Of a DNA stretch of 37,214 bases, positions 3,237 through 20,292 are shown one piece after another (the stretch's first letter is position 1; each line of letters opens with the position of its first letter). Origin of the DNA: an uncultured Bacteroidia bacterium (GTDB lineage: Bacteria; Bacteroidota; Bacteroidia; JANWVE01); contig CALIZB010000003.1 of NCBI GenBank assembly GCA_938028625.1, forward strand, positions 76,103 to 113,316, read 5' to 3'. Position numbers and translations under genes: made by a program. The notes beneath the pieces were generated by a model. It had not been told where the DNA came from. It was given only the letters and a program-made list of their open reading frames with translations, and searched no databases.

Positions 3237-4025
3237 TTACAAACAACCTGTTCTTCCTCCGTCCACAGGTATATTAATACCTGTGATATAGCTTGCCCAT
3301 TCACTGGCTAAAAAAGCCACAGCAAAGGCAATTTCTTCGGGTTTTCCAAAACGTTGCATAGGAATTTCATGTAACATTTCTTGAATAATAACCTCTTCAA
3401 TTTGATTTGTTTTTATGCTTTTATTATGAATAATACTTTGCAAACGTTCTGTACTAGTTGCACCAGGTAATACATTATTTACAGTAATTCCATATTTAGC
3501 TACTTCATTAGAGAGTGTTTTTGCCCAATTAGCAACGGCGGCGCGAATAGTATTAGAAACACCTAATCCTTTAAGAGGTTGTTTTACAGAGGTAGAGATA
3601 ATATTGATAATTCTGCCAAACTGTATTTCTTTCATTTTGGGAAGAACAGTCTGTGCAATAAGATGATTACAAATTAAATGTTGTTCAAATGCGTTTCTGA
3701 ATTCTTGTATTTGTGCATTTTGAATTTCTCCTGCAGGAGGTCCGCCTGTGTTATTGACCACAATGTGTATAACATTGAACTGTATGTAATTTTCTACGGC
3801 TTTTTGCACCTGTTCAGGATTAGAAAAATCTGCTACAAGATAGCTGTGTTTTTGCTCAGAAGAACAAAATAAAGTGTTTATTTTTTCTTTTAGTTTGCTT
3901 TCATTTCTTGCCATTAGTACCACATTAGCGCCTAATTCAGCAAACAAAACAGCTGTGGCGCCCCCGATACCTTGGGTAGCGCCACAGATTAAAGCATTTT
4001 TTCCTGTAAGATGTAAACTTTGCAT
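3237..4025 (-). CDS. SDR-family oxidoreductase with altered catalytic motif
   Basis: 262 residues, the usual size of a classical SDR. The Rossmann motif is GATQGIG (15-21), the NNTGG motif stands at 91-95 in place of NNAG, and the C-terminus has PEEIAFAVAFLASEWASYITG with VDGG, all as in 3-oxoacyl-ACP-reductase-like SDRs. The active-site serine region is NIISTS (~141-146). At the position of the catalytic YxxxK the protein has S157-N-T-I-R161. A known group of BKR-like SDRs lacks the perfect tetrad in the same place, so this looks like a family trait and not damage. The substrate is unknown. A box TAGCTTTG ends 4 nt before the ATG. Confidence 0.9.
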   Translation of the reverse strand: MQSLHLTGKNALICGATQGIGGATAVLFAELGANVVLMARNESKLKEKINTLFCSSEQKHSYLVADFSNPEQVQKAVENYIQFNVIHIVVNNTGGPPAGEIQNAQIQEFRNAFEQHLICNHLIAQTVLPKMKEIQFGRIINIISTSVKQPLKGLGVSNTIRAAVANWAKTLSNEVAKYGITVNNVLPGATSTERLQSIIHNKSIKTNQIEEVIIQEMLHEIPMQRFGKPEEIAFAVAFLASEWASYITGINIPVDGGRTGCL

Positions 4026-17495: not shown

Positions 17496-17554
17496 CGAAG
17501 AATAGATGTTAAAATTATAACTCCTAAAAACTTTGTGCGTATAAGCTATAAATT

Positions 17555-17890
17555 ATGAAAAAAACAGCATTTTTTTTATTTATTCTGGTATGTATCTCTG
17601 CTATTTCATACAGCCAAACTGTGTTTAAAGTAAACAGTAAATATGATGCAGATGTAAAAGTATTTGTAGCAAACTCCAAATATGATGCAGATTTGATAGT
17701 ATTTGAAGTAAAAAGTAAATATGATGCAGACAAAGACGGGCTTTGGTTTTTTACAAACTCAAAGTATGATGCCAAAAAGAAAATATTCTTTGTAGACTCC
17801 AAGTATGACGCAGATATCATTGTTTATTTTGCTAATTCAAAGTATGATGCAGGTTGGAGAAATACAGCTAAAATTGGCAAATGGAAATAG
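17555..17890 (+). CDS. SKYDA-repeat secreted protein, 7(1) septoil-knot (DUF6150) family
   Basis: 111 residues. A signal peptide (hydrophobic 5-18, ending SYSQ) is followed by six copies of SKYDA at 28, 41, 54, 69, 82 and 95. The spacing is 13 residues, apart from a two-residue insertion in the middle unit (DKDGLWFF). Between copies are short strands such as VKVFVAN, LIVFEVK and IIVYFAN. The tail is WRNTAKIGKWK. From memory, proteins with this [ST]K[EY]YxA repeat are the DUF6150 family, renamed for a predicted seven-crossing knotted fold; I cannot run a search here. The mature protein would be periplasmic or secreted. The function is unknown. The repeat coding makes the opposite strand open too, but that frame lacks a signal or promoter. 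Confidence 0.85.
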   Translation: MKKTAFFLFILVCISAISYSQTVFKVNSKYDADVKVFVANSKYDADLIVFEVKSKYDADKDGLWFFTNSKYDAKKKIFFVDSKYDADIIVYFANSKYDAGWRNTAKIGKWK

Positions 17891-18152: not shown

Positions 18153-18602
18153 TTACTCCAATCCGCAGTACCTGCGTATATCCTCGCCGTTTTCCAGCAT
18201 TTTGCCAAGTTTTATGATTTCCTCTTTGAGTTCGGGGATTTCAGCCATGTTATTTGCAATAGCACCAAGTATTTTTTCTAATCTTGCCTTGCGCGTAGCT
18301 TCTTTATCTAATTCTACCCATTTATCATATTCCTGATAAAATTCAGGGTATTGTTTTTCTAAATATGGACGCACGAGTTCTACGGTTTCTATTACAATCT
18401 GGGCATCTTCAAAGGCGTCAGGATTAGATAAACTGAACGTATGAGTTTCATAAATACACAATTCTATCTCCTTTGCACAATTTAAATGCGTTTTGTGAAT
18501 TACCTTCAAGGTATTATCAGGGGAGATTTTGCAGGGGATACTACGTGCAAATTCATTTTTTTGACGGTTTATTTTCCATTTTTCTTCGGTTTTGCTTATC
18601 AT
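18153..18602 (-). CDS. Hypothetical helical protein
   Basis: 149 residues from the ATG at 18602; the longer frame to 18644 would begin with a TTG that crosses the divergent promoter. I do not recognise a family. The first 60 residues are mixed with strand-like NTLKVIHKTH and ELCIYETHTFSL; the rest is strongly helical and charged (VELVRPYLEKQYPEFYQEYDK, DKEATRKARLEKILGAIANN, PELKEEIIKLGKMLENGED). No signal or membrane segment is seen, so it is probably cytoplasmic. Its only promoter candidate, TAAAATTG on the minus strand, has one mismatch to the -7 box. It diverges from the subtilase. Confidence 0.65.
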   Translation of the reverse strand: MISKTEEKWKINRQKNEFARSIPCKISPDNTLKVIHKTHLNCAKEIELCIYETHTFSLSNPDAFEDAQIVIETVELVRPYLEKQYPEFYQEYDKWVELDKEATRKARLEKILGAIANNMAEIPELKEEIIKLGKMLENGEDIRRYCGLE

Positions 18603-18628
18603 GGTGAACAATTTTAATAATTTTTTTG

Positions 18629-18636
18629 TAGTTTTG
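18629..18636 (+). promoter_or_regulatory. -7 box TAGTTTTG of the subtilase gene
   Basis: It lies 9 nt before the ATG at 18646 and decides that start against the longer frame from 18592, which would run through the promoter. Confidence 0.65.
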
Positions 18637-18645
18637 AATGTCAAT

Positions 18646-20292
18646 ATGCAAACAACTACTTACCTAAAATCATTTCTTTTGCTTTTGTTTTCTACCCAGT
18701 TTGTAGCTGTATTTAGTCAGAATACAACAAAAAAATGGATTTTCTTAAAAGATAAAGGCACAAACACAGAGTATTATCTTGCCCACCCTGAATTGTATCT
18801 TTCTCAAAGAGCAATTGAAAGACGCGCTAAATATGGTATTCCCATAGATATAACGGATATTCCCGTAGAAAAGTCTTATGTATCAGCTATTCAAAGTAAA
18901 GGCGTTAGCATAAAAGGTGTGTCTAATTGGTTGAATGCTGTATGTGTAGAAGGTACAGAAAATCAAATCAATAGTATTAAGTCCCTATCCTTTGTTAAAG
19001 AGATCAAACCACATACCATATATCGCAGAAAAATAGAAGAAGTAAATGAAAATCTAAATTTTAATCCCACAGCCAAAACAAACAGTTATTATGGTAGCGC
19101 GTTTGTACAAAACGATATGATTGGTATTCCGTGTATTCATACAGCAGGATATACAGGGACAAATATCATTATTACCTTGATGGACAGTGGATTTTTGAAT
19201 GCAGATACTTTATCTTGTTTTAAGCATGTATTTTTAGGTGGCAGACTACTCAATACTTATGATTTTGTAGATAACCAGCCTACGGCATGGGATGAAGATG
19301 GACATGGTACTTTGGTATGGAGTACTATTGCGGCAAAAATTCCTAATGTAATTGTAGGTACAGCCCCTGACGCTAAATTTATTTTATATCGTACAGAACA
19401 GGTATCTGCTGAGATCAACCAAGAAGAAGTAAACTGGATGTTAGCTTCACAAAGAGCGGATTCTTTAGGTACAGACATTATTCATTCTTCTTTGGGATAC
19501 AGCGTATTTGATGCGGGACAAACTTCCTACACATATGCAGACATGGACGGCAAAACGACTATTATCACCCAAGCCGCAGTAATGGCACGGAGAAAAGGTA
19601 TTATGATAACAAATTCCGCAGGAAATGAAGGTTCAGGACCATGGGGATATATTACAGCCCCTTCTGATGCCGATAGTATTTTATGTGTAGGTGCCGTGGA
19701 CGCAAGTAGAAACAGAGCGGCTTTTTCAGGCTACGGTCCTAGCAGTGATGGTAGAATAAAACCTGATATTATGGCTATGGGAGTAGCTACGGCTTGTGTA
19801 AGTGGTAGCTCAGGCAACATAGTTACTGCAAATGGTACTTCTCTTTCAGGTCCTTTGATTGCAGGGCTTTCTGCCTGTTTATTACAAGCTAAAAACACAC
19901 TCACGCCTATCCAATTAGTTAATTTAATACGTAATGCGGGAGATAAAGCCTCCTCCCCTGATAATTTCTATGGCTATGGCATACCTGACGGTTGTAGCGC
20001 TCTAAATGCACTGACCAGTGTAAATGAGTCTATACATCTTAACTCCACTGTATTAAATGTTTATCCTAATCCTACTAAAAACACCATTTATTTGGATTAC
20101 AAAGAATTACAAGGTAAAACTACAGTTCTGCTCTATAACGCCATAGGACAAAAATTACATGAAGAAAGTTTTTATTTAACTGATAATCAAGGAATAATTA
20201 CTATAAATACTGAATATCTTTCATCTGGAACTGTATATGTTCAGGTACAAAATAATGAACATACTTTACATGGTATATTCATCAAAGAATAA
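18646..20292 (+). CDS. Subtilisin-like S8 serine protease with T9SS sorting domain
   Basis: 548 residues from the ATG at 18646. A signal peptide ends FVAVFSQ. Residues ~25-145 form a propeptide-like region typical of Bacteroidota S8 proteases (WIFLKDKGTNTEYYL, LSQRAIERRAKYGI, NAVCVEGTENQINSI). The catalytic triad is complete: Asp180 in LMDSGF, His220 in DGHGTLVW and Ser399 in NGTSLSGP, with the oxyanion Asn in TNSAGNEG. The tail has VYPNPTKNTIYLDY, VLLYNAIGQKL, LSSGTVYVQV and HGIFIKE, a type A sorting domain. It is predicted to be exported through the outer membrane and to act on extracellular protein. Confidence 0.95.
   Translation: MQTTTYLKSFLLLLFSTQFVAVFSQNTTKKWIFLKDKGTNTEYYLAHPELYLSQRAIERRAKYGIPIDITDIPVEKSYVSAIQSKGVSIKGVSNWLNAVCVEGTENQINSIKSLSFVKEIKPHTIYRRKIEEVNENLNFNPTAKTNSYYGSAFVQNDMIGIPCIHTAGYTGTNIIITLMDSGFLNADTLSCFKHVFLGGRLLNTYDFVDNQPTAWDEDGHGTLVWSTIAAKIPNVIVGTAPDAKFILYRTEQVSAEINQEEVNWMLASQRADSLGTDIIHSSLGYSVFDAGQTSYTYADMDGKTTIITQAAVMARRKGIMITNSAGNEGSGPWGYITAPSDADSILCVGAVDASRNRAAFSGYGPSSDGRIKPDIMAMGVATACVSGSSGNIVTANGTSLSGPLIAGLSACLLQAKNTLTPIQLVNLIRNAGDKASSPDNFYGYGIPDGCSALNALTSVNESIHLNSTVLNVYPNPTKNTIYLDYKELQGKTTVLLYNAIGQKLHEESFYLTDNQGIITINTEYLSSGTVYVQVQNNEHTLHGIFIKE

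Follow-up and report, generated by a model that had tools for sequence, protein, structure and literature searches.

The stretch of DNA analysed here (the window, 37,214 nucleotides from an uncultured Bacteroidia bacterium) contains a small gene whose product carries one pentapeptide six times, and the question it raises is what keeps these six loops alike and what fold they belong to. The gene is an intact ORF on the plus strand (17555-17890, ATG to TAG) encoding 111 amino acids plus the stop. From the sequence, the protein carries a typical predicted signal peptide of 20 residues (MKKTAFFLFILVCISAISYS, 17555-17614), followed by Gln21 as the likely +1 residue, which is invariant in an alignment of ten relatives. 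The mature chain would then have 91 residues. SKYDA was found in exactly six copies, at residues 28, 41, 54, 69, 82 and 95, with a spacing of 13, 13, 15, 13 and 13 residues. An earlier description of this DNA by a model (the sequence-only reading) had claimed an export signal, a mature protein of about 90 residues and six SKYDA units in 13-residue steps with a two-residue central insertion, and in all of these points it agreed with the ORF.

By codon reading, the first unit lies at 17636-17650, with the tetrad SKYD as its first 12 nucleotides, and is followed on the same strand by units 2 (17675-17689) and 3 (17714-17728). The DKDGLW segment in the centre (17729-17746) holds the two extra residues of the 15-residue step; its Gly and Trp (G62 and W64) are kept in all ten relatives. 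Units 4, 5 and 6 follow at 17759-17773, 17798-17812 and 17837-17851. The C-terminal segment GW...K (17852-17887) consists of a conserved GW, invariant as G100 and W101 in the same alignment, and then a predicted helix (AlphaFold, H84-90 in mature-chain numbering). An antisense ORF at 17524-17820 was taken as spurious, as it mirrors the repeats, and a promoter and terminator scan at the gene gave nothing better than shuffled sequences.

The protein matched PF19647 (DUF6150) with E=2.9e-45 and 152.7 bits, against a curated cut-off of 27 bits. Residues 18-106 aligned to profile positions 6-94 of 98, corresponding to a full-length domain, and in an alignment of 117 members the protein was in register with its relatives, in a single register throughout. 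Judged from the sequence, six identical pentapeptides in 91 residues together with such a match are far beyond chance. The family had been named earlier as DUF6150 or 7(1) septoil knot; the first half of this label held, while the knot name was not confirmed and remains a lead, the Pfam entry saying DUF6150 only and a literature search for 'septoil' yielding no protein paper. As had been stated, no function is known, and no paper mentioning DUF6150 was found in the literature search. Six units, the central G-x-W insertion and the C-terminal GW are common to the window protein and its relatives; nothing in it is distinctive, and its tetrad SKYD is the commonest in the set. It is an ordinary member of a known but uncharacterised family, for which a knot is a plausible, unproven idea.

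The DUF6150 family is real and patchily distributed. The gene is single-copy in the genome of the window (2.9 Mb in 170 contigs; six-frame search, 152.1 bits), and a match was seen in 13 of 60 relatives, in 20 of 396 genomes sampled across the phylum and in 37 of 294 from a second class. All named matches belong to Bacteroidota, the phylum to which the search was directed. DUF6150 was not found in two congeners, the order being represented by three genomes in the sample. The genes neighbouring the locus are ordered differently there, which indicates gain or loss of the gene with rearrangement, or else its absence from the drafts (91% and 97% complete). An origin from a mobile element or phage was rejected, with 0 matches in 50,697 phage and 72,556 plasmid records and only 3 contigs in IMG/VR. 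One of the virus-classed contigs (IMGVR_UViG_3300012031_000010, 70.5 kb; L117:5563-5898) has a DUF6150 gene with a signal peptide and YxNQ tetrads near a thymidylate synthase-like gene, as identified by eye, and is possibly a true phage copy. In another (L115:1995-5829), genes read by eye as McrB-like (AAA, with an EVE-like part) and McrC-like directly precede the DUF6150 gene, a placement that may be due to chance.

We then compared the loops across 138 members (101 non-redundant), defining the tetrad as loop positions 0-3, S-K-Y-D in the window protein. All six tetrads were identical in 56 of the 138, in ten kinds (SKYD, YESQ, YKSD, YKYD, WKSE, WKSD, YKSE, HEYQ, SRYD and YDYQ), and the repeats of the window protein, earlier called unusually uniform, therefore follow a family rule. 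The matching is not absolute, since mixed-tetrad proteins exist, at the extreme with six different tetrads (10 of 138). In the 101 non-redundant members, tetrad identity between units of one protein was 0.850, compared to 0.368 (sd 0.007) when units were shuffled among proteins. At strand offsets -5, -3 and +6 the within-protein identity was 0.30, 0.18 and 0.07, versus 0.77, 0.71 and 0.70 for the same unit across proteins. The switch from residues shared by all six units to unit-specific ones is abrupt at both edges of the tetrad, except for the near-invariant Ala that follows it.

The tetrads also obey rules of charge and aromaticity. For positions 1 and 3, 324 units were (+,-), 16 (-,+), 4 (+,+) and 2 (-,-) (n=606), and in 218 units Gln at position 3 went with an acidic or neutral residue at position 1. 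An aromatic residue was present at position 0 or 2 in 587 of the 606 units and absent in 19. As far as the residues tell, these rules look like packing chemistry.

The explanation that we propose, to which we give an even chance, is a clasped, double-wound, probably knotted and exported binding module. Six strand-plus-loop units would pass twice round a ring of about seven positions, for which the C-terminal GW...K segment is the candidate seventh, and each would pack against those at a distance of three and four units. The tetrads of the loops, in S-K-Y-D with one aromatic residue and a K-D charge pair, would act as clasps between the two passes. Clasps of one pass would contact those of the other; for this reason all six tetrads would have to match, and the motif would be exchanged in evolution as a whole. 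The product would be a compact, stable small domain, located in the periplasm or extracellularly and probably folded into a torus knot (5_1 or 7_1), and its biological role would most likely be binding via the sixfold repeated loop face. The stronger version, in which a widespread exported family is torus-knotted by double passage round seven ring positions, with six identical clasps locking the knot and replaceable only as a full set, we consider tentative and clearly less probable.

On a (2,7) torus path each unit is rotated by 2 x 360/7, following the rule in PMC10598012, and with two passes over seven ring positions unit i thus adjoins i+3 and i+4. This expectation was formed before the unit pairs were tested, with covariation from about 65 effective sequences. 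The five unit pairs at separation 3 or 4 gave the five highest mean scaffold couplings, and the contrast for these pairs was the best of 720 relabelings, mirror order counted (bootstrap 95% range 0.03-0.13). Cross-unit couplings between positions 1 and 3 weakly favoured units three or four apart as well (30 of 720 relabelings). Sharing of tetrads in mixed-tetrad proteins was raised at the same separations, weakly, and this rise was significant at 85% clustering (bootstrap 0.04-0.22) and not at 70%. Post hoc, position -6 of unit j was seen to couple with -2 of unit j+3, modulo 7; these five contacts had a mean of 2.2 versus 0.4 for the mirrored ones, and three of the five were strong. Some couplings were contrary: some joined adjacent strands (32-43, 46-57), strands 3-4 and 4-5 were coupled, and some registers looked antiparallel. 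These count against double winding, because a uniform parallel torus does not predict them. Overall, covariation supports units three and four apart as likely neighbours in the fold. Assuming double winding, such a torus curve drawn for 6-6.5 turns gives 5_1 or 7_1 in most closures.

The main rival on loop matching keeps the same fold and proposes that the identical tetrads jointly recognise an external ligand or partner through a repeated surface; a polymer, a second molecule of the same protein or a surface structure would qualify. Different tetrads would then be different specificities, and tandem gene pairs would carry two of them. Aromatic plus charged loops suit binding, the distribution of the family is patchy, and the motif varies between clades while the scaffold is conserved. 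In a tree built from the scaffold only, the SKYD group of the window sits inside a YESQ and HAYQ group (SH-aLRT 95) and is separated from the majority of the other SKYD proteins. The sequences thereby suggest more than one origin of SKYD, in a tree with 66 of its 116 inner branches open. On this poorly resolved tree the tetrad switches took 52 steps, and those of the K-D/x-Q class 8, both rough counts. Tandem pairs fit the ligand explanation. The recurrent neighbour of a DUF6150 gene is a second one, co-directional and close by, and in all seven adjacent pairs with readable motifs (L050, L058, L061, L064, L065, L066 and L110) the two products carry different uniform tetrads, mostly YKSD with SKYD, once SKYD with YESQ and once YKSD with YEYQ. 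However, of these pairs at least four are mutually related, no conserved operon partner other than the second DUF6150 gene was found among 942 flanking ORFs, and a ligand alone leaves the coupling preference for units three or four apart unexplained. We consider uniformity driven by a ligand possible, and less probable than the clasped module.

The fold itself was modelled with AlphaFold. With 117 sequences the local fold was predicted confidently (mean pLDDT 91.2, pTM 0.76), with six strands and a C-terminal helix, most tetrads forming a short helical turn; a run with 10 sequences only was useless (pLDDT 43.6). A Foldseek search against solved structures gave as its four best matches entries of a single protein, Q9PR55 of Ureaplasma urealyticum (PDB 8IWA, 8IWB and 8JRM), with E from 5.5e-3 to 0.11 and probability from 0.92 to 0.38, and nothing else above probability 0.1. 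A search of a viral structure library with the model found nothing. Q9PR55 has 89 residues, and crystallography has borne out the 7_1 knot predicted for it (PMC9278004, PMC13352647); its homologue P73136 is predicted to form a 5_1 knot. The best match covered 72 columns at 22% identity and the two proteins are of similar size. A further possible likeness is the wound-twice neighbour relation that covariation suggests for DUF6150. In contrast, the superposition was poor (TM 0.32-0.37, rmsd 10 A), so the global chain path may differ, and a sequence relation was not detectable: profiles of 10 and 117 members retrieved no Q9PR55 chain from the PDB sequences (for the 117-member profile up to E=10), a set in which 8iwa is assumed to be present from its 2026 date. 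The export signal is another difference, as read on the side of the window protein only. On the model, a deeply knotted fold is plausible for the DUF6150 protein; in AlphaFold models chains may run through one another, and knots can be predicted too often (PMC10672856).

Another reading of the fold, overlapping with both the clasps and the ligand, is a six-strand protein without a knot, in which the symmetric turns are structural and only the local strand-turn geometry matches Q9PR55. It would account for the low TM-score, for the sequence link that was not found and for the antiparallel-looking couplings and the coupling of strands 3 and 4. It sits less well with couplings that peak for units three and four apart instead of one apart, and with Q9PR55 entries being the sole Foldseek matches of probability above 0.1, and we hold it about as probable as the ligand explanation.

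Recent homogenisation of the repeats, put forward in the sequence-only reading and taken here as slippage or gene conversion at the DNA level, is largely refuted, and we hold it to be very improbable: identical codons for the same motif residue do exceed the expectation from local codon use (0.550 versus 0.474 in 108 genes, with no excess at control positions, 0.492 versus 0.502) and units 1 and 3 of the window gene share their SKYDA codons, but in 14 of its 15 unit pairs 1-5 of the 15 nucleotides are different, Ser is encoded by AGT, TCC and TCA, equal uniformity occurs in 56 of 138 relatives across ten kinds of tetrad, and a conversion tract would not leave uniformity confined to exactly four residues beside unit-specific strand residues. 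The small codon-identity excess leaves room for occasional old copying. Taken together, the tetrad identity of 0.85 versus 0.37, the repeat-specific strand residues and the differing synonymous codons argue for selection that would act on all six loops together.

Among protein knots confirmed by experiment, the most complex (7_1) is that of one small Ureaplasma protein. Should DUF6150 prove to be a large and sequence-diverse family related or analogous to Q9PR55, hundreds of natural variants would be available for testing how knots form and evolve. Designed tandem-repeat proteins with knots (PMC10598012) share the principle of obtaining torus knots through a rotation of the repeats by p x 360/q, and differ in being helical; designs aimed at more complex knots reportedly did not reach them, as summarised in PMC10672856. 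Knotted solenoids, as described in PMC13123833, are likewise small beta repeat proteins with a knot, whereas theirs is 3_1, their coils are related to pentapeptide-repeat solenoids and they are reported for one bacterial group (Brevundimonas). The new point here is that the tetrads are concerted throughout the family and appear linked to the wound-twice neighbour pattern. The family is an unusual evolutionary case, in which six loops of one chain change together without obvious DNA conversion. If the stronger version, with its knot locked by clasps, holds, concerted tetrad evolution would be a sequence readout of knot contacts, and each tandem gene pair would combine two clasp types that exclude one another.

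One relative is a protein of 239 amino acids (L012:982-1701, minus strand) with five DUF6150 units and no signal peptide, followed by a Ser-rich linker, a hydrophobic segment and an SH3_3-like C-terminus just below the cut-off. This architecture suggests that DUF6150 may be a binding module able to sit on either side of the membrane.

In the window itself, a subtilisin-like S8 peptidase is encoded at 18592-20292 on the plus strand. Its C-terminal stretch resembles a type IX secretion sorting domain, and orthologues with 71-73% identity are present in both congeners. A transketolase-like gene with two neighbours was seen twice in the assembly of one congener (G002, contigs C54 and C33, loci L162 and L163), each copy with 87% identity to the protein of the window, indicating duplication or mixed strains. 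In a congener, similar intergenic stretches seem to recur (L171:57-305 and 3558-3896), as their spurious translations share text, which suggests a dispersed repeat between genes.
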